A stretch of DNA of 64,000 nucleotides. Source: Lachnospiraceae bacterium. Its GTDB lineage: Bacteria; Bacillota; Clostridia; Lachnospirales; Lachnospiraceae. The DNA lies in NCBI GenBank assembly GCA_017517305.1, contig JAFWZV010000003.1, forward strand, positions 83,465 through 147,464, given 5' to 3'. The notes below the pieces were generated by a model that saw only the letters and a list, made by a program, of their open reading frames with translations, did not search any database and was not told where the DNA came from. Positions 34,657 to 42,921 of this stretch are shown one piece after another; position 1 is the first letter of the stretch, and every line of letters starts with the position of its first letter. Made by a program: the position numbers and the translations under genes.

Positions 34657-35748
34657 GTGCAAGGCTATAGAATGTTTAAACAATTAAATAGTGTAGAGGA
34701 TTTAGAGTTATCCTTCTATGAGGAGGTTTCCCAGATACCTGAGAATGAGGGAGATTTAGAAACCACCGTAAGCTATGTAAAGGATACTAGAGATGGAAAG
34801 CTTTATATTAAGAAGGAAATATTAAATGGTGACAAAGCTGTATATGAGGAGCTGCTTAGATATGAGGAAAAGAATGGCAAAAAGCTAGCCGGAGTACCTA
34901 AGCTATTTACCATTACAGATGATGGAAACAGAGTTTACACTATAGAGGAATTTATAAATTGTCCAACCCTACATAGTGTAATGGAGTCTCAATCTGTTAC
35001 TGCTGAGGAGCTTACACTTATATTTAGAGAGGTGTGTATAGTATTAGAGAGACTTCACAAGTCTGCTAAGCCTATAGCTCATGGTGAGGTTTCCGCCAGA
35101 AATATATTGGTGGATATGGATGCAGTAAGAGGTATAACTAAGAATCAGAAGGTTTACCTGGTGGATTTTAACAGGGGAACTAAGCAACATCTTAGAATAG
35201 ATATAAGTCAGGATATGAAGGATTGCTGCAAAACCTTGAGACAGTGTATGGATACCTTGGTGTTAAAAAGTATAACAGAGTTTGATGGACCACTTTGGGA
35301 AGGACTTAAGGATATTGCTGAGAATGGTCCCGTAAAATTCACCACAGACCGTCAGATGATATCTGGTCTAGGAATGCTTATAGGCAAACGTGCTCCGAGA
35401 AGGGAAAAGTCAAATAAAAAAAGCTACGCATTACCAGGCTTTAGAACTAAGAAGCTATGGAAGATGCTTATAGCTTCATTTGCATATATATTTATGGTGT
35501 TAATTGCCATTAATGTGGATATGGATTATGAAGGAATATGGAATGTGTATGAGAGACTTTGTGCTTTTGGTTTGATGTTTTCATATCCAGCATGGTTTTG
35601 CAATTATATGGGGGTTAGAGATAAGTACAGTTGGTTAAATGGAAAGAGCGTGGTTAAGAAGCTTATAGGACATTTTATAGCGGTGGTTGCAATATTTGGT
35701 TTCTGGATGATGATGATAATAGGACCGGATTTACTTAATATATTTTAG
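34657..35748 (+). CDS. Kinase-fold membrane protein with altered catalytic motifs
   Basis: The 363-residue protein has a eukaryotic-like kinase N-terminal lobe with a candidate beta-3 lysine (KLYIKKEI, K52/K53), then AHGEVSARNILVD where HRDxxxxN would be expected (HGE with N149 kept), and VDFNRG instead of DFG. Two or three hydrophobic helices (about 272-365) end the protein. It may be a pseudokinase or an atypical phosphotransferase. GTG 34657 is used because GGAG lies six bases before it; ATG 34672 is an alternative. It is coupled to the decarboxylase-like gene. Confidence 0.75.
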   Translation: MQGYRMFKQLNSVEDLELSFYEEVSQIPENEGDLETTVSYVKDTRDGKLYIKKEILNGDKAVYEELLRYEEKNGKKLAGVPKLFTITDDGNRVYTIEEFINCPTLHSVMESQSVTAEELTLIFREVCIVLERLHKSAKPIAHGEVSARNILVDMDAVRGITKNQKVYLVDFNRGTKQHLRIDISQDMKDCCKTLRQCMDTLVLKSITEFDGPLWEGLKDIAENGPVKFTTDRQMISGLGMLIGKRAPRREKSNKKSYALPGFRTKKLWKMLIASFAYIFMVLIAINVDMDYEGIWNVYERLCAFGLMFSYPAWFCNYMGVRDKYSWLNGKSVVKKLIGHFIAVVAIFGFWMMMIIGPDLLNIF

Positions 35749-35770
35749 ACTCGGAAGTGGAAATAGTAAA

Positions 35771-35806
35771 AACCATTTCATCCGTGTGGGTGAGATGGTT
35801 TTTTTG
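35771..35806 (+). terminator. Terminator of the decarboxylase/kinase-like operon
   Basis: AACCATTTCA (35771-35780) pairs with TGAGATGGTT (35791-35800), one G-T, followed by a T run. Confidence 0.8.
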
Positions 35807-35847
35807 ATTGGTATCTCCAAGCTGTGGGATATGTCAAAAGGCAAACT

Positions 35848-35970
35848 ATGAATAAGGTCCTTTCTAGAAATCACTTCCGTAACTTTTGCGGAGGTGTTTT
35901 TGTTTTGGTCTATACTGCAGATGTAGCTGAGGGGAGAAATTTATCAAAATCTATTAGAAAAGGAGAATAG
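35848..35970 (+). CDS. Possible 40-residue leader ORF before clpP
   Basis: An ATG at 35848 with AAAAGG upstream opens a 40-codon frame (MNKVLSRNHFRNFCGG..., ending RKGE) whose stop at 35968-35970 lies within the clpP ribosome-site region. It spans the hairpin and promoter-like module shared with 40876-40944, where the corresponding frame has no start codon. Differences between the two copies are not concentrated at third codon positions, so this may be a chance frame. Confidence 0.25.
   Translation: MNKVLSRNHFRNFCGGVFVLVYTADVAEGRNLSKSIRKGE
35871..35939 (+). promoter_or_regulatory. Hairpin-plus-promoter module, copy A
   Basis: A stem CACTTCCG/CGGAGGTG (35872-35896) with T-run is followed by TCTATACTGCAGATG and TGAGG. 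The same 69-base arrangement recurs at 40876-40944 with compensating stem changes. TATACT could be a -10 element, but no good -35 is seen. It precedes clpP. Confidence 0.5.
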
Positions 35971-35975
35971 GAATT

Positions 35976-36590
35976 ATGACTAGATATGCTAAGGAAACTG
36001 CAAAAGGAATTGAAATACTAGCATTAGAGGAGGTGCTTTATTCAAGTAGGGAGATTTTTCTTACAGAGGAGGTAAATACAGATACATCAGTTCAGTTGAT
36101 TAAAGAGCTGATGGTGCTAGAGAAGCTTGACCCTACCAAGGAGGTGACACTTTACATTAATTCACCTGGTGGAGAGGTTATCAGTGGAATGGCGGTGTAT
36201 GACTACATTCAGATGATGAAGGCTCCAGTTAAGACTGTTTGTATTGGAACAGCAGCCAGTATGGGGGCTATGCTTTTCTTGGCTGGTGATAAGCGGGAAA
36301 TGCTTCCACACACCAGACTTATGATTCACGATCCTGCCTTTGGAGGTGGAAATATGGCGGGTAAGAAGCCACATGAGTTGCAGCAGTATGTAGATAAGCT
36401 TAAGCAAACTCAGGATATAATAGTAGATATTATTGCTCAGAAGACAGGTAAGTCTAAGGAAGAGGTTCGTGATACTACTAAAGAGGATGCATATTTTAAT
36501 GTGGCTGAGGCTATGGAGTATGGGCTTGCTACAGGTATTTACAATAAGCTTAATGATACCTTGGGTAACGAGAATTTGGTGTTGTTATAA
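35976..36590 (+). CDS. ClpP-family serine protease paralogue
   Basis: The 204-residue protein is a full ClpP: catalytic serine S95 in GTAASMGAML, histidine H118 in RLMIHDP, and aspartate D171 in KEDAYFNVAEAMEYGL. ClpP forms tetradecameric chambers fed by Clp ATPases. Here it heads an island of unrecognised genes and has no adjacent clpX or tig, so it is probably a specialised second copy. AAAAGGAG precedes the ATG. The main clpP of the genome is not in this window, so paralogue status is inferred. Confidence 0.88.
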   Translation: MTRYAKETAKGIEILALEEVLYSSREIFLTEEVNTDTSVQLIKELMVLEKLDPTKEVTLYINSPGGEVISGMAVYDYIQMMKAPVKTVCIGTAASMGAMLFLAGDKREMLPHTRLMIHDPAFGGGNMAGKKPHELQQYVDKLKQTQDIIVDIIAQKTGKSKEEVRDTTKEDAYFNVAEAMEYGLATGIYNKLNDTLGNENLVLL

Positions 36591-36758
36591 AAAAGAGTTG
36601 AGGTTTAATAAAGTGCTGGGTATAATTTGATTATGGATAAATTCTGTGGAAATTACGGAAAAAAGTTATTGGTGATTTAGTATATGAACAAGCAAGGTAA
36701 TGTGTGGGTGGTACTGCACATTTCCTTGCAAAATTAATAATAATTTGGAGGTAGAACT
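36591..36758 (+). other. Intergenic region after clpP, with hairpin
   Basis: An imperfect hairpin GCAAGGTAATGTG / CACATTTCCTTGC lies at about 36693-36740. It may be a terminator or attenuator between clpP and the following gene. Confidence 0.45.
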
Positions 36759-37757
36759 ATGAGAGAAGAAATTTTGGAGAACAAGGCAGATTTGGAGCTT
36801 AAGCTTAGAGGTCTTATGGATCATTTTACAGGATTAGATACCTTTGTGAGTGAGTATGTATGTGATGAGGAGGGAAAGTTGTCCGAGGATAAGGTGGACG
36901 AACTTATCAGTGAGCTAATAGGGATAATGTACAACCACTGGTACTATCAATTTAATAATGGAATGTCTGGAGCTAAAAAGGTGTGCTTAGAGCAGTTTTT
37001 GTATCTGGCTATTATGTCCCATAGATATGGAGATAATGTGAGAACCTTTAGAAATATTTTATCTCTGCTAGATGATGATAATTATTCTAATTTATTTGAA
37101 CTTTATGAGGATGAGATAAATGAGCATAGAAGCTGTCCTAGAGGCTTCTTTGGGAAGCTACATGAAAATTATGTGGAGCTTTCAGGACATACCATTCTAG
37201 AGGATATGGAGGAGGCCGACAAGGCTATTATAGATGGGGAGCTTGATGCAAAAAGGACATCTCAGAAGTATAGACAGCAGCAGGAGTCTATATGTGCAGA
37301 GTATGAGGACAAAGGTATAGAACCTGTATATCATAGAGAGGCTACCTATGAAGAGATGATAGGCTACCAGGAAAGTGTGCCAGATGACTATATAGAAGAA
37401 ATAAATCCTGAAACAGGGGAATTAAGCTATGTGCCTGTATGGAATAAGTTATCACCTACATTTATGGATAGAGCACTAAAACGACTTGATGAAGAATATG
37501 TGGCTGAGGTTAAGGAAAAAGAGGCTTTAGCCCTGGCTCAGTGGAGGGAGAGTATCAAGGATCCAGCCAGATTCCTTCAGGCGTGTAGAGATTTTAGGAA
37601 GCTTTACTTTGTGGTAGGAATTAACAGGAAGGAGCTTGAGGAGACCTTCGTTCGCTTTCTTAACAAGCAGGGCAAGGGAAAGCTTGATAATACAGATAAG
37701 GTTAATGAGCTTTATGTAACTCTTGCCAGAGCAAAGAAAATATCTGACCGTGCGTAG
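36759..37757 (+). CDS. Island protein of unknown function, 332 residues
   Basis: A soluble, acidic, mainly helical protein with no signal peptide or membrane helix. The start has GGAGG at good distance. Tyr/Glu-rich stretches and a central segment around TYEEMIGYQESVPDDYIEEINPE are visible, but no known motif. The next gene begins 15 bases after its stop, so the two are probably cotranslated and may act together. Not recognised. Confidence 0.75.
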   Translation: MREEILENKADLELKLRGLMDHFTGLDTFVSEYVCDEEGKLSEDKVDELISELIGIMYNHWYYQFNNGMSGAKKVCLEQFLYLAIMSHRYGDNVRTFRNILSLLDDDNYSNLFELYEDEINEHRSCPRGFFGKLHENYVELSGHTILEDMEEADKAIIDGELDAKRTSQKYRQQQESICAEYEDKGIEPVYHREATYEEMIGYQESVPDDYIEEINPETGELSYVPVWNKLSPTFMDRALKRLDEEYVAEVKEKEALALAQWRESIKDPARFLQACRDFRKLYFVVGINRKELEETFVRFLNKQGKGKLDNTDKVNELYVTLARAKKISDRA

Positions 37758-37772
37758 AGCGGGGGTGATAGT

Positions 37773-38768
37773 ATGTTTAAGAAAAATTTCTATGATTGGG
37801 TAAAGTATGATTTTACACATAGTCAGGAGCTACAGGGAAATGCCAAATCATTTCTAGCCCGATATTACAAAGAGTACTACGATATGGGAGCGGCATATGA
37901 TGAACTTAAGAGGCTTGCAGATGGCTTGAAGGTGGGAAAGACCTCAAAGGAATTGGTCTTTCATAAGGCCAAGGAGATGTATAGTAAGTCAAAGCTTCAG
38001 ATAGTTAAGGAAATGCCAGATAGAGAAGGGATTATATCTTTTAGAAGCTTTAATCCCTTCAAGGGAGCATGTGAAGGTGATATGACTGCTGCTGAAGTGG
38101 TAGAGTTAGCTAATATGGTTCTAGATGCCAGAATAGATAAGGCTATTAAAGAATACATATATAATATTGATCATGGTAGGAAAACGGATAATACCCTTGA
38201 TATTATAGATAAGCTTTTTGAGGAGCAGGGTGTAAAAATAGAGTTTGACGATAATGCAAAGCTACAGGTTAATAAAACAGAATGCTCCAACCAAGAGGAT
38301 GTTAATTCTGAGAAATTTAAAGAAGAAGCTGAGAGAGTATATAAAATAATTTGGAATAGCAAAAAGGATAATATAGTGCTTCCAATATATCAAGAGGGAA
38401 ATATAGGTATATATATTATGGGAAGGAAGAATATTATCAAAGAAGATTGGAGTGAAGGAATAGACAGAATAGATGGGGCAGAAGAATTATCAGAGACTGA
38501 AAAAATGGTTCTAAAAAAAGTCTATGAAAGCAATAAAGCATATTATTGTTTTGTGGATAATACACCTTATAGAGATGGGGATAGTCTTATGCCTGATATC
38601 ATAGTTAATGTATGCTATGACTTAGATGATGTCATAAAAGAATTTGGTAGAAATAGAAAGTATACCAGTGAAATATATCGTAATGTCAATGGTATGGGAG
38701 ATACTGAATTATTATCTGAACTTGGAGAGAAATATAGACATTATTTTTCCAAGGACGAGATGGATTAA
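37773..38768 (+). CDS. Island protein of unknown function, 331 residues
   Basis: A soluble protein with basic N-terminal half (MFKKNFYDWVKYDF) and acidic C-terminal half, no membrane segments. Preceded by GGGGGTGAT and only 15 bases after the previous gene. The C-terminal part (about 190-331) carries alternating hydrophobic/charged sequence with several Tyr and Asp, suggesting an alpha/beta domain. No motif recognised. Confidence 0.75.
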   Translation: MFKKNFYDWVKYDFTHSQELQGNAKSFLARYYKEYYDMGAAYDELKRLADGLKVGKTSKELVFHKAKEMYSKSKLQIVKEMPDREGIISFRSFNPFKGACEGDMTAAEVVELANMVLDARIDKAIKEYIYNIDHGRKTDNTLDIIDKLFEEQGVKIEFDDNAKLQVNKTECSNQEDVNSEKFKEEAERVYKIIWNSKKDNIVLPIYQEGNIGIYIMGRKNIIKEDWSEGIDRIDGAEELSETEKMVLKKVYESNKAYYCFVDNTPYRDGDSLMPDIIVNVCYDLDDVIKEFGRNRKYTSEIYRNVNGMGDTELLSELGEKYRHYFSKDEMD

Positions 38769-38802
38769 TTGGAAAAATTAAATAACCAACATTATGTATA
38801 AA

Positions 38803-38835
38803 AGCTGTCAGATTAGAAATGCTGGCAGCTTTTTG
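38803..38835 (+). terminator. Terminator inside the island
   Basis: AGCTGTCAG (38803-38811) pairs with CTGGCAGCT (38822-38830), one G-T, followed by TTTTG. It ends the two-gene unit upstream. Confidence 0.78.
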
Positions 38836-38952
38836 TGTTAACAATTAGCCATATTCCAATATCCGTAAAAATCGCGGATAAGAAAAATTGCCATGCTAAA
38901 CTGTCACTACAGACATAGGCAGCCTTAAACTAAGGGCGGAAAGGAGACCAAT

Positions 38953-39570
38953 ATGAGACAAAGTTTGGCAGACGTTTTAGCAGAGGCGAGAAAGGAGAGT
39001 ATCAGGGAATCAGAGAAGATAAGAGCCTGTGTAGAAGCTATGGGAGAGGTAACCCTATATGAGCTTCTTCTTAGAAGTGGTTATTCCAATAAGGATAAGG
39101 ATGAGTTAATAGATAACTATTTATTTATGGGAGTAATAATTTCCTATGAAGCTCTTAAGGATTTGTCAGGTCCGGAAATTGAGAAGGGCTTAAGAAAGAT
39201 GAAGCTTAGGGACTTTTGCTGTATGTCGGACCATTTAGATAAATATATAGATAAGGAGCTTATGGAAGGGTTACTTAGTGAATATCAGTTGGCAGATATA
39301 TACGGTATAGCTAATAGAAACATAGGTCACAACATACAGGAAGCTGGGCTAAATGGTCATAAAGCGGCAAAGGATTTTGCCAGAATCAATGTAGGCTCCT
39401 TAGATACGATGCTTAATTTTCCTGAGGACTATAACCCAAACCATAACTATGGAAAAAGTAGGATGGGGGATTTTCTGTTAGATGGTGGTATAGGAGGCGC
39501 ATTTAGACTTTGTAAGGATTATGACATTAATAAGGCCATTGAAGGGTTTATTAAGTTGGCAACAGAGTAA
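38953..39570 (+). CDS. Island protein of unknown function, 205 residues
   Basis: A soluble, charged, mostly helical protein (MRQSLADVLAEARKESIRESEK...) with a Gly/Asn-rich middle (NYGKSRMGDFLLDGG). AAAGGAG stands before the ATG. A hairpin TATCCG/CGGATA at about 38869-38883 and a possible -10 (TAAACT) lie upstream, so it seems to start a new transcript with the TraG-like gene, which follows after 34 bases. No family recognised. Confidence 0.7.
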   Translation: MRQSLADVLAEARKESIRESEKIRACVEAMGEVTLYELLLRSGYSNKDKDELIDNYLFMGVIISYEALKDLSGPEIEKGLRKMKLRDFCCMSDHLDKYIDKELMEGLLSEYQLADIYGIANRNIGHNIQEAGLNGHKAAKDFARINVGSLDTMLNFPEDYNPNHNYGKSRMGDFLLDGGIGGAFRLCKDYDINKAIEGFIKLATE

Positions 39571-39604
39571 CTTATAAAAGATAAGAAGAAAGGATGATGA
39601 AATT

Positions 39605-40855
39605 ATGTGTATGATGAAGAGAAAAAACTACGGAACAAGAAATCTATCAGGTGTGATTGTAAGTAACGACACATTTGCCACAGGGCTTAACAACCATGAT
39701 CTAGTGCTGGCTAAGACGGGAGGAGGTAAGACAGGTATATATGTAAGCTCCTATATGGAGGAAGCATATGAAAGTCTTATAGTGGTTGATACAAAGGGTA
39801 CTCTGTACCGCATGTACAAGGACCATCTTTTAAGTCAGGGTGTTAAGGTAAAGCTGATAGATATGGTTAATCCCAAACGTTCAACCGTTGGTTATAACCC
39901 TCTGACCTTCACTAAGGTGAGGGGCACAAGAGGATACAGTCAGAAGGATCTAAAGTCCGTGGTTGCAACACTAATTCCTAAGGATTTGGATGAGCGAGAT
40001 ACTTACTGGGTACTATCGGCTAGAAAGTATCTGTATTCTATTTGCTGCTATGTGATGGATTTTCTTTCAACTAAGGATCAAAATCTGGGGTCAGTTTTGG
40101 CTATTCATAAGGAATTTTGTTCTGGAAATATGGATGAGATTTTTGATAGAGTATGTGATGAAAATCCTAAATCGGCTTTTGCTGGTGCATATAAGCAGGT
40201 TATAGGTCTTAAGGAATCAAGCAAAACCTGGGCCTGTGTCCTTGACTTTGCCAGCACTGCCCTAGATGTAATGGATAGTGAGGAGATGAACATTATTTTT
40301 GCCAAGAAAAAGAGCATAGATTTTGAAAGCTTAGGCAAGGAAAAGTCAGTTCTTTTTATCAACATAAGTGATATGGATCGTTGTTTTGATGGAATAGTTA
40401 ATCTCCTTTACATTCAGGGCTTAAAATCTCTGGTGGAGCTTGCTGACAGCAACCCTGACGGCAGACTTTCCATGCCGGTGAGATTTATATTTGATGACTT
40501 CGCCTGTGGTGCACCTATTGATAACTTTGATAATATTATAAGTGTGGTTCGCTCCCGTGATATATCCTGTAGTCTTATAGTACAGAGCTTAACTCAGCTT
40601 AATACAGTTTATGGCTCGGATAGGGCCACAACTATAATTAATGCCTGTGACCATATGCTGTATCTAAATGGCAATGATGATGTTACTAAAGATTTCTTGG
40701 CCTACCGACTTAATAAGCCGAGACATATTATCGACAGACTGCCTAATAACAAGGCTTATCTACTAGAGGCTGGAAGTGCTCCAAGACTTATAGATAAGGC
40801 TAGGCCTTATGCCTTATATAACAGGATTGTGGCTGGTGAAGAGGCTGAAAAGTAG
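39605..40855 (+). CDS. Soluble TraG/VirD4-like (type IV coupling protein family) ATPase
   Basis: The 416-residue protein has Walker A AKTGGGKT at residues 36-43, then VDTKGTLYRMY and PKRSTVGYNPL, and a C-terminal FIFDDFACGAPIDNF with RSRDISCSLIVQSLTQL, the pattern of TraG/TraD coupling ATPases (their Walker B is usually DEFA; here DDFA). It lacks the N-terminal membrane helices of true coupling proteins, and no relaxase or type IV secretion genes are nearby. It may move or remodel nucleic acid or protein in the island's system. Confidence 0.85.
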   Translation: MCMMKRKNYGTRNLSGVIVSNDTFATGLNNHDLVLAKTGGGKTGIYVSSYMEEAYESLIVVDTKGTLYRMYKDHLLSQGVKVKLIDMVNPKRSTVGYNPLTFTKVRGTRGYSQKDLKSVVATLIPKDLDERDTYWVLSARKYLYSICCYVMDFLSTKDQNLGSVLAIHKEFCSGNMDEIFDRVCDENPKSAFAGAYKQVIGLKESSKTWACVLDFASTALDVMDSEEMNIIFAKKKSIDFESLGKEKSVLFINISDMDRCFDGIVNLLYIQGLKSLVELADSNPDGRLSMPVRFIFDDFACGAPIDNFDNIISVVRSRDISCSLIVQSLTQLNTVYGSDRATTIINACDHMLYLNGNDDVTKDFLAYRLNKPRHIIDRLPNNKAYLLEAGSAPRLIDKARPYALYNRIVAGEEAEK

Positions 40856-40874
40856 CAAATATGTTTACAAACAA

Positions 40875-40908
40875 AATGCTTCCGTAATTTCTACGGAAGC
40901 ATTTTTGC
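40875..40908 (+). terminator. Terminator of the TraG-like gene (within module copy B)
   Basis: AATGCTTCCGTA (40875-40886) pairs perfectly with TACGGAAGCATT (40892-40903), followed by TTTGC. It is also the hairpin of the repeated module. Confidence 0.8.
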
Positions 40909-40944
40909 TTTGTTCTATAATGCAGATGTGGTTGAGGTAGAAAA
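40876..40944 (+). promoter_or_regulatory. Hairpin-plus-promoter module, copy B
   Basis: It is aligned base for base with 35871-35939: the stem is conserved by paired changes, then TTTTTG, TCTATAATGCAGATGT and TGAGG. TATAAT (40916-40921) is a good -10 without a clear -35. A transcript from here would begin just before the first leader RNA. Confidence 0.5.
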
Positions 40945-40956
40945 CCTCAAAACCCG

Positions 40957-41073
40957 GTGTACAGGGCACAGGAAAAAGAATATGTACACAGCGACTGAGA
41001 TGCGTCTAAAAACATCCAGGGTATACCTACAGAAAGGCAACTGCTAAAACATCTGAGGTGAAGCCCACCGAGG
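40957..41073 (+). ncRNA. Structured leader RNA, copy 1 (before radical SAM gene)
   Basis: About 117 nt, near-identical to 42007-42119. Shared blocks include GTGTACAGGGCAC, AATATGTACACAGCGACTG, CTAAAAACA, CCAGGGTATACCTAC, GAAAGGCAACT and GGTGAAGCCCACCGA. GTGTAC pairs with GTACAC; GATG pairs with CATC around a CTAAAAA loop (GCTG/CAGC in copy 2, a compensatory change); GGTG pairs with CACC. It lies on the coding strand 44 bases before the start codon, as riboswitch-like leaders do. No known family was recognised. Confidence 0.7.
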
Positions 41074-41116
41074 GATTGCAGACTCTAAAAATGTGTATTA
41101 AAGGAGGATGACTACT

Positions 41117-41989
41117 ATGAGAGAATTAAAGTATATACCAAATTCAGTATGCTGGAACATAACAAGCAGATGCAACGAAGCCTGTAAGTTTTGCTACAGA
41201 GAAACTAATATGAAGGATTTAACCTTTGAAGAACAAAAGAAGGTTATTGACGTTCTTGCTTCTGTAGGAATTCTCAAATTAACCTTTGCAGGAGGTGAGC
41301 CTTTGTTAATTCCAAGAATCAATGATCTTATCCTTTATGCAAAGAGCAAGGGATTGGTGGTGTCTATGACAAGCAATGCTATATTGATTGATGAGAAGCA
41401 GCTTAAGTTCCTTCTTGAGAATCTAGACTGGTTAACATTATCCCTAGATGGAGCCACAGACGAGATACAAACACTTATGACCAGACATAGTAAGCATGCT
41501 ACGAAGGTTAAGGAAATTCTCGAATATGCATCAGCCTATAAGAAGGGTAAATGTCGCATAAAGATAAATACTGTTGTGAGTAAAAAGAACTACAAGAACG
41601 TACAGGATATAGCCCACCTAGTGAAGAAATATAATGTTACTCGCTGGAAGCTTATGCAGTTTACTCCACTTAGAAGCTACGCCAAGGAGGCTCAGAGTGA
41701 GTTTGAGATAAGAAATGATGAGTTTGTCAGTGCTTATAATAAAGCCAAGCTTGCTATGGGGAGTATGGTAAATCGTGTGGAGGCTACTTGTAGCAATGAT
41801 ATTGAGCAAGAAACATTTACGGTATTTCCTAACGCAGATGTAAGAGTTGCGAAGAATCTTCAGGAGAAGACCATAGGAAATTTGCTACGGGACAACCCTG
41901 GCGAAATATGGGCAAGAGATGGAAGGGAGTATAAGCAATTAAATATGAGAACAAAATTCCTGGAGAGGGATGTAGATTTGATAGCGTGA
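41117..41989 (+). CDS. Radical SAM protein
   Basis: The 290-residue protein carries the iron-sulfur/SAM motif CNEACKFC (C19, C23, C26) and the GGEP motif in FAGGEPLL, followed by TSNAILID and LSLDGATDE, the standard partial TIM barrel. There is no cysteine-rich SPASM tail; the C-terminus ends soon after the barrel (ERDVDLIA), so it may be a short form or trimmed. ATG 41117 is chosen since AAGGAGG (41101-41107) touches the earlier ATG 41108. Substrate unknown; a role in peptide or RNA modification within the island is speculation. Confidence 0.9.
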   Translation: MRELKYIPNSVCWNITSRCNEACKFCYRETNMKDLTFEEQKKVIDVLASVGILKLTFAGGEPLLIPRINDLILYAKSKGLVVSMTSNAILIDEKQLKFLLENLDWLTLSLDGATDEIQTLMTRHSKHATKVKEILEYASAYKKGKCRIKINTVVSKKNYKNVQDIAHLVKKYNVTRWKLMQFTPLRSYAKEAQSEFEIRNDEFVSAYNKAKLAMGSMVNRVEATCSNDIEQETFTVFPNADVRVAKNLQEKTIGNLLRDNPGEIWARDGREYKQLNMRTKFLERDVDLIA

Positions 41990-42006
41990 TAAAATTCGCC
42001 TGTCCA

Positions 42007-42119
42007 GTGTACAGGGCACCAAAGAATATGTACACAGCGACTGGCTGCGGCTAAAAACAGCCAGGGTATACCTACCGAAAGGCAACTTCCAAAGCATCTG
42101 GGGTGAAGCCCACCGAAGG
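42007..42119 (+). ncRNA. Structured leader RNA, copy 2 (before alpha-CTD gene)
   Basis: About 113 nt, second copy of the element at 40957. It differs by a 4-base gap after GGGCAC, a one-base gap in the variable stem and about a dozen substitutions, several in paired positions (CTGGCTG/CAGCCAG here is a perfect 7-bp stem). Gaps not divisible by three argue against protein coding. It starts 17 bases after the radical SAM stop and ends 41 bases before the next start codon. Confidence 0.7.
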
Positions 42120-42159
42120 TTAGTATATGATAATGACTTACAAAATAGGAGGTAATCGT

Positions 42160-42765
42160 ATGGAAGATATACTTACAAAATTAGCTCAGAAAAACTTAGG
42201 TATGGGAGGCCCGGTAAGCCAGGAGGAGATTGAAGAGTTTTTCAAGGATAATATGCAGAAATATAGCTGGAGACTAATTGCCAGAATGAGTGAAAAAGAA
42301 CATAAGGATGATACGTGGGATTACCTATACACCGATGATATGGGAATAGGAATCACATTAAATCCAAATGTCAAGGGTTTTCGCTTTAGCAAAAATGTAA
42401 AGATAATCTACAAATTAAGCTCACATGAGAGTAACCCTTGGGATTATGCTTTCAAAGATGGTTCAATATTTTTTGAAAAGAAATATATTGAATTTAGAAA
42501 AATGGTTAAAGAAATGAGTATATTAGAGGAGGAGACAAATATGGATAATAAGAATTTTAACAATCAAGATCCTATATTTGAGCTTGAAATTTCTATAAGA
42601 TCAGCAAACTGTCTTAGGAAAGCAGGAATTGTTAGTATTGACGAGCTGTTAGAGTGTGATGCGAAGAGAATAAAAGGAATAGAAGGCTTGAGTCCTAGAG
42701 GAATACAGGAGGTATTAACAATTTTAGAAGAGCTTAAGGAGAATAGGAAGAAGGAAAATGAATAG
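42160..42765 (+). CDS. Protein with C-terminal RNA polymerase alpha-CTD-like domain
   Basis: The 201-residue protein has an N-terminal region of about 135 residues (acidic, with KYSWRLIARMSE and YLYTDDMGIGI) of unknown kind, then a segment FELEISIRSANCLRKAGIVSIDELLECDAKRIKGIEGLSPRG (given here in parts: ISIRSANCLRKAGI, SIDELLE, GLSPRGIQEV) that matches the alpha-CTD of RNA polymerase, including the RSANCL motif used to contact UP elements. AGGAGG at 42147-42152 selects ATG 42160. It may tie promoters or a regulator to the island. The partner is unknown. Confidence 0.75.
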   Translation: MEDILTKLAQKNLGMGGPVSQEEIEEFFKDNMQKYSWRLIARMSEKEHKDDTWDYLYTDDMGIGITLNPNVKGFRFSKNVKIIYKLSSHESNPWDYAFKDGSIFFEKKYIEFRKMVKEMSILEEETNMDNKNFNNQDPIFELEISIRSANCLRKAGIVSIDELLECDAKRIKGIEGLSPRGIQEVLTILEELKENRKKENE

Positions 42766-42921
42766 TTATGGTATTAGCCAAGAGAATGGGTTAGGTAAAA
42801 TAATCAAATAACTCCGATAAATATGTTAGTAATTCCATATAGCAAAATACTAAGAAATGGTTTAGAATATGTAGCACTGATTGTTATAATGATTTTAATA
42901 GTGATACAAGGAGAAATATTT

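Follow-up and report, generated by a model that had tools for sequence, protein, structure and literature searches.

A leader RNA family with a predicted H-type pseudoknot precedes accessory genes on phages and islands of one bacterial order

The window analysed here is the whole 64,000-nucleotide stretch of Lachnospiraceae bacterium contig JAFWZV010000003.1 (assembly GCA_017517305.1, positions 83,465 to 147,464, forward strand). It carries an accessory island in which a ClpP-like gene, three unknowns and a VirD4-like gene are followed by leader RNA copy A, a viperin-like gene, copy B and an alpha-CTD-like gene (Table 1). The spot (window 35748-42823) is flanked on one side by a gene (34657-35748) that we judged by eye to be kinase-like, and on the other by a MatE transporter gene. 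These two flanking genes are adjacent, with the spot empty, in five relatives (L063, L064, L067, L069 and L070), and the island is therefore an insertion. Genome G010 has VirD4-like, ClpP-like and alpha-CTD-N-terminal-like pieces before MatE, with one flank in view, while in G031 a related island follows the kinase-like gene and MatE lies on a separate contig.

The product of the gene behind copy A matches PADLOC pVip (E value 3.9e-45) and viperins of the PDB (E values 6e-18 to 3e-16), and scores 145 bits against NCBIfam NF038283, under the cutoff of 180. Among other genome contigs, the viperin-like protein was matched at one distant locus (30 %, residues 22-102) and was absent from the G031 stretches searched; its association with the RNA is therefore known from this window alone.

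Table 1. Coordinates of the two leader RNA copies and of the surrounding features in the window
Feature	Position	Strand	Basis
ClpP-like gene	35976-36590	+	
Three genes without Pfam match	starts 36759, 37773, 38953	+	
VirD4-like ATPase	39605-40855	+	
Island 5' of leader A (the preceding three rows)	35976..40855	+	Pfam/NCBIfam scans
Terminator-like hairpin after VirD4-like gene, just 5' of leader A	40873..40905	+	14-pair stem, T-rich tail
Possible -10 (TATAAT) of leader A, 31 nt before S1	40916..40921	+	sequence; without good -35
Leader RNA copy A, whole element	40953-41073	+	
Copy A conserved core	40953..41022	+	models R1, R2, R3; pair counts
Copy A S1	40953-40955 with 40964-40966 (3 bp only)	+	
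Copy A L1	40956	+	
Copy A S2	40957-40963 with 40983-40989	+	
Copy A loop	40964-40982	+	
Copy A linker AGCGA	40990-40994	+	
Copy A P2	40995-41002 with 41013-41019	+	
Copy A 3' module with GGTG/CACC hairpin	41023..41073	+	A-B alignment; printed members
Ribosome-binding site (SD) of viperin-like gene	41101..41107	+	sequence; ATG at 41117
Viperin-like radical SAM gene	41117..41989 (ORF listed from 41108)	+	CNEACKFC = CxxxCxxC motif; Pfam PF04055
Leader RNA copy B, whole element	42001-42119	+	
Copy B conserved core	42001..42066	+	covariance models; pair counts
Copy B S1	42001-42005 with 42014-42018 (5 bp)	+	
Copy B L1	42006	+	
Copy B S2	42007-42013 with 42029-42035	+	
Copy B loop	42014-42028	+	
Copy B linker AGCGA	42036-42040	+	
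Copy B P2	42041-42047 with 42058-42064	+	
Copy B 3' module, homologous to copy A 3' module	42067..42119	+	A-B alignment
Ribosome-binding site (SD) of alpha-CTD-like gene	42147..42152	+	sequence; ATG at 42160
Alpha-CTD-like gene (C-terminal RNA-polymerase-alpha-CTD-like domain)	42160..42765	+	PF03118, E 3.4e-12

Two near-identical structured elements had been proposed at this locus by a sequence-only reading, and both are present in the sequence. BLASTn with A against its own genome returned B (87 % identity, E value 6.4e-35), and the copies differ, as described, by gaps of four bases and one base and by the paired change of GATG/CATC to GCTG/CAGC. The proposed limits were right as to location but not at the 5' ends, which we extended upstream by 4 nt in A and by 6 nt in B, since the added bases pair with the first loop bases of the GTGTAC hairpin, giving a putative pseudoknot. 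Placement on the sense strand, 5' of a ribosome site, also stands; the claimed spacing of 40-45 bases, counted from the earlier 3' ends, fits the ATG (43 and 40 nt) but not the SD (27 nt each). The GGTG/CACC stem exists in A and B but, being identical in the two, is without covariation support, and the 3' module that contains it was seen in these copies alone (by eye, ~42 nt extra relative to other members; its opening 25-nt stretch had no exact match in viral contigs). A and B are the only clear copies in their genome, the seven further BLASTn matches all having E values of at least 0.58. Folding energies of the single sequences are ordinary (z -1.28 for A and -0.01 for B), so that the predicted structure of the two copies is supported comparatively, thermodynamics giving none.

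Neither copy matched an Rfam 15 family at the gathering score or at E values up to 10, in agreement with the earlier failure to recognise a known family. Eight loci from relatives (E up to 5) and eight viral or phage loci (E up to 2) likewise returned no Rfam match overlapping the element, and covariance models of hammerhead ribozymes matched neither A and B nor the element of the relatives scanned. No earlier description of the element was found in the accessible portion of the literature, PMC8191799 included, the scope of this statement being motifs other than those that appear only in the 2017 catalogue of 224 motifs (doi 10.1093/nar/gkx699).

BLASTn with A over 61 genomes (its own and 60 relatives) matched two, the second of which, G031, was a weak match (E value 0.0013). 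The G031 sequence is nonetheless a true relative: its S2 strands read GTATAC/GTATAC in place of GTGTAC/GTACAC, paired changes also occur in P2, and the RNA heads a gene with the same alpha-CTD-like domain. A covariance model of these three sequences (R1) returned A, B and one match at E 0.087 in their own genome, and added members in G130 and G046 (three of 392 order genomes matched). Model R2, built from five sequences, added G447 and G557 (three of 250 family genomes), and R3, from seven, added G112, G398 and G279 (six of 392 order genomes), the own genome being included in each count. Other genome draws returned known members alone (2/48; 2/391 class genomes; 2/58); the draws overlap and their counts are not independent. 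Altogether, members were found in nine genomes, the eight besides our own belonging to the same order, which gene content suggests to be one of Lachnospirales-type Clostridia, and the family is rare and patchy. IMG/VR contigs yielded more members, reached via a downstream protein and two patterns, and one member is held by the phage record Dulem virus 34 (PP511788.1, annotated complete). A and B are hence members of a leader RNA family without an Rfam entry, carried on phages and islands of one order.

We compared 16 distinct members, ten genomic (A-G, H, I and J) and six viral (K, N, O, Q, R and S). Near-duplicates (L049:4207, L051, L052, L056, L061, L075 and L081) and the truncated L050 were left out of the counts. 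K and N are weak R3 matches (E values 0.0007-0.0009), and O was recognised by eye rather than as a model match. Two copies occur in one element in two cases, the window (A and B) and L049, before two different genes.

Several candidates were rejected. Of six weak R1 matches in genus genomes (E values 0.006-0.09), three lie within or against coding genes (named by eye) and three were judged from alignments alone. Pattern matches L026-L034 were judged to be chance (best R2 match, E value 0.25), and L074, L077 and L078, out of eight pattern matches, are non-members. In phage Bo-Finn (L054) the repeats before genes are different sequences, and R3 had no match in L054 or in plasmid locus L055. A group-H pattern had no match in 159 phylum genomes. 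BLASTn of B returned nothing from phages or plasmids, the leader of member K returned its own record only from phages and nothing from plasmids, and the protein behind member R had no match in either.

The 16 members share a predicted fold, an H-type pseudoknot with an S1 of 3-6 bp, a one-base L1, an S2 of 7 bp and an A-rich L3; the order S1-L1-S2-L3 with a one-base L1 and a 7-bp S2 is the classic H-type geometry. With strands placed by hand and the loop length (12-19 nt) picked to suit S2, which biases the count towards structure, pairing holds in 108 of the 112 S2 cells (shuffle mean 71.1; reached by none of 20,000 shuffles). S1 is paired in 76 of 80 cells over five positions (shuffle mean 66.4; 0/20,000) and in 62 of 64 over four (reached by 21 of 20,000 shuffles), a count that falls to 43 or fewer on sliding; it is weakest in A, and J has one mismatch. 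An alignment of eight members made with MAFFT without structure gave a similar picture, with 93.1 % of cells pairing versus 69.6 % when shuffled and a covariation of 0.673 versus 0.182 (0/500; 0.16 or less on sliding). In that alignment, a sixth S1 pair forms in two of the eight members. A seven-member MAFFT alignment with A, B and C gapped S2 and was excluded from the counts. G-U and U-G are among the pairs observed. An outer stem between an S1 strand and the GGG after P2 was possible by eye in A-F and was rejected, as it is not possible in G, where S1 covaries instead. The earlier reading had named two outcomes that would count against it, a clear Rfam hit, or neither covariation nor occurrence outside the locus; neither was seen, as the pairs covary and the models built from the copies matched other genomes.

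An A-rich L3 occurs in A, B, C and O, and most other members have one that is GUAGAGUU-like. The linker that follows S2 is of AGCGAC type in most, with AGAGAC in G and AGTGAC in J, and leads into the P2 hairpin. The loop of P2 is of CUGAA/CUAAA type in the majority of A-G, I and Q-S. P2 cells are paired at 98 % in A-G and likewise in the eight MAFFT members. In H, K, N and O the linker is of another kind, and a GGCC/GGCC-type hairpin (GGUC/GACC in O; by eye) takes the place of P2. Four small downstream proteins are homologues, three of them being 71, 45 and 47 % identical to the first; this one protein family is headed by an A-like leader in three cases (Q, R and S) and by an H-like leader in the fourth (N), a finding that ties the two leader subtypes to one role.

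An SD follows the element in all 16 members, and the element is oriented towards the gene in every case. The distance from S1 to the SD ranges from 86 to 168 nt and is 102-115 nt in 11 of the 16, near-constant although the part 3' of the pseudoknot varies between subtypes; the extra module (by eye) would explain most of the excess length of A and B, and a hammerhead that of I. An ATG lies 9-16 nt from the start of the SD in 15 members; in C it is missing from that place, and the start codon of this member is uncertain. Thirteen members are followed by an ATG-initiated ORF of at least 72 codons, the exceptions being E (50 codons), F (45 codons) and C. Taken together with the pair counts, these observations support well both the predicted pseudoknot fold and the leader position of the family.

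The best -10 match lies 22-35 nt 5' of the S1 stretch in ten members (A, H, I, J, K, N, O, Q, R and S). The promoter score beats shuffles (P <= 0.054) only in H, K, Q, R and S, and H, K, N and O are mutually related. Shuffles did as well as the best match of A (P 0.60), whose -10 lacks a good -35; B begins 12 nt past a stop codon, and its best match is likewise not above shuffles. By eye, five loci (L048, L049, L051, L053 and L061) have sigma-70-like promoters just 5' of the element with overlapping palindromes (for example ACTCACGTGAGTAT and ACTAACGTTAGTAT), which suggests a common type of repressor for H-type leaders. Five consecutive T do not occur between S1 and the SD in any leader (0/16). 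In nested folding, a model that leaves the pseudoknot out, the presence of the leader made the SD clearly less often unpaired in B, slightly less in H and more often in A, with little change otherwise. The leader of member I additionally contains a type II hammerhead (RF02276; 59.6 bits, cutoff 37; L043:1417-1488), situated 12 nt 3' of the modelled core and 5' of the ORF, beside rather than inside the element. The 3' module of A and B sits roughly where member I has this hammerhead.

The genes behind the other members are diverse and include small orphans. The ten of these ORFs that were scanned drew nothing from PHROG, and from Pfam nothing above cutoff, and a reading of the gene of member D as YbjN-like was rejected as Pfam gives it no support. 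By eye, L079 and L081 have an integrase close to the RNA, and L057 has a terminase there. The G031 island is ordered RNA, alpha-CTD, a 1372-aa AAA+/AAA+/peptidase-M41 protein, ClpP-like, X, Y, Z and VirD4-like. Its 1372-aa protein (L035:10695-14813) joins a ClpA-like AAA+, an FtsH-like AAA+ and peptidase M41 and, with its ClpP-like and VirD4-like neighbours, looks like a proteolytic conflict system. Between the AAA+ gene and ClpP of this RNA-headed island is a strong terminator-like hairpin (L035:14798-14825), which fits either an operon end or a site passed by an antiterminating leader. In G130 the RNA lies 5' of a 225-aa gene, ClpP and a VirD4-like gene and 3' of a 3065-aa ATPase. The latter protein (L037:1034-10228), with an ATPase region giving weak STAND-like matches, is followed by an 890-aa protein (weak WYL) and an HD-domain protein.

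Our preferred reading, held tentatively and drawn partly by analogy, is that of a leader family acting in cis and bound by a host factor, most plausibly RNA polymerase as for the put RNAs of phage HK022, so that the gene is expressed when it would otherwise be shut down. During transcription of an accessory gene, ~70 nt near the 5' end would fold into the H-type pseudoknot, the A-rich L3 should occupy the minor groove of S1, and the conserved linker and second hairpin would come after it. The module, working in cis on its own transcript, would then be recognised by the host factor, most plausibly the transcribing polymerase, and the accessory or defence gene expressed under conditions that otherwise shut expression off. 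We infer recognition by a host factor because unpaired bases are kept while the downstream genes differ, and no common gene was noticed among the elements. A host-encoded factor is preferred over metabolite sensing because of the diverse genes, the occurrence on both phages and islands, the multiple copies in two cases, the base-specific conservation and the fact that no expression platform was found. Against a polymerase-directed leader, several phage members seem by eye to head one small gene, where antitermination has no obvious use; B has no clear promoter and lies just behind a stop codon, A has a -10 without a -35, and the hammerhead in I would sever the element from the mRNA. Promoter proximity is not diagnostic here, because putR lies ~270 nt from its start site, as given in PMC9378689.

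Protection of the mRNA is one alternative, as a pseudoknot near the 5' end could be an exonuclease-resistant RNA that blocks 5'-dependent decay, with an open stretch and the ribosome site coming after it. In Firmicutes, such decay is the work of RNase J and a pyrophosphohydrolase. The compact H-type fold, the promoter-near position in 10 of 16 members and the near-constant distance to the SD in 11, with no expression platform found, would all suit a protector; we consider it unlikely, as a roadblock does not seem to require so much conservation of the linker and P2 loop, B follows closely on another gene and the hammerhead in I would remove the element. A similarly modest chance attaches to a switch that senses a ligand or protein, that is, a riboswitch or an autogenous translational operator of the T4 gene 32 type. 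Conserved unpaired bases together with a pseudoknot are found in some aptamers, the SD distance is near-constant, and the SD of B and H is less open with the leader. A classical riboswitch is however unsupported because there is no T-run terminator in any of the 16 leaders and no general hiding of the SD (nested folding, pseudoknot outside the model), and the unrelated downstream genes suggest no shared metabolite or autoregulator. The sequence-only reading had offered a cis-acting riboswitch-like leader: a structured leader RNA in cis position, with covariation, is what we find, but the data do not support calling it riboswitch-like in the usual sense. That reading had also suggested a guide-type RNA, of which no feature was noticed.

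It is improbable that the element is a trans-acting small RNA or decoy made from mRNA 5' ends, for instance against a host nuclease or CRISPR effector. Behind member F come a 45-codon ORF and, by eye, a terminator-like hairpin, behind member E comes a 50-codon ORF, and the hammerhead in I would release the element; yet the SD is kept downstream in 16/16, at near-constant distance in 11, and 13 members precede an ATG ORF of at least 72 codons. A new class of self-cleaving ribozyme is more doubtful still: a hammerhead is present in one leader, and the niche of prophage hammerheads is shared (PMC3088659), but the element is matched by none of the Rfam ribozyme models and no candidate site of cleavage was identified. 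Least credible is a DNA-level element (a recombination site, operator or single-stranded-DNA promoter), which the inverted repeats in mobile elements might suggest; G-U and U-G pairs occur, orientation is towards the gene in 16/16, and the palindromes at the promoters of H-type members are, by eye, of another kind.

Whichever factor may bind the leader, the family is probably a shared device controlling small accessory genes. It is a covariation-supported RNA family spanning a phage, prophage-like contigs and defence-type islands, and it heads accessory genes that include a relative of viperin. If directed at polymerase or an RNase, it would be a general RNA device to express accessory or defence genes. 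The element is also a searchable tag for unknown genes of these kinds.

Among known systems, the preQ1, SAM-II and c-di-GMP-II riboswitches are pseudoknot riboswitches and resemble the present family in placing a pseudoknot in an mRNA leader; they differ in that our element has no Rfam match, no expression platform was found, and its downstream genes are unrelated. The leader of T4 gene 32, which acts autogenously, has a pseudoknot with a short L1 and a 7-bp S2, then an open stretch to the ribosome site. Our members share this arrangement, but T4 gene 32 is a single gene, whereas many unrelated genes and a second hairpin are found here. Prophage hammerheads border single genes or short gene blocks according to PMC3088659, and since one sits in the leader of member I, the element and hammerheads share a niche; the element itself, unlike the type II hammerhead (RF02276), matches no hammerhead model.

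The closest parallel is HK022 put. As described in PMC9378689, putRNA is ~70 nt long, occurs twice per phage, forms two stem-loops with a minor-groove triplex and needs no protein factor. Likenesses to that description are the length of ~70 nt, the two structural units, similar copies at different places per element, a triplex-forming third strand (shown for put, and here suggested by the A-rich L3) and the lack of a known dedicated protein partner. Unlike the two stem-loops of the lambdoid phage, the first unit here is a predicted H-type pseudoknot and the hosts are others; several members also seem to head single small genes, and antitermination is putative here, the likeness being drawn by description. 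A bolder proposal, that these are put-like, protein-independent nascent RNAs of Gram-positive phages and islands whose pseudoknot triplex modifies the host polymerase and so secures expression of viperin-type and phage accessory genes, strikes us as rather unlikely as a whole. The likeness to HK022 put is that of an RNA that may work like put, and not one of membership.
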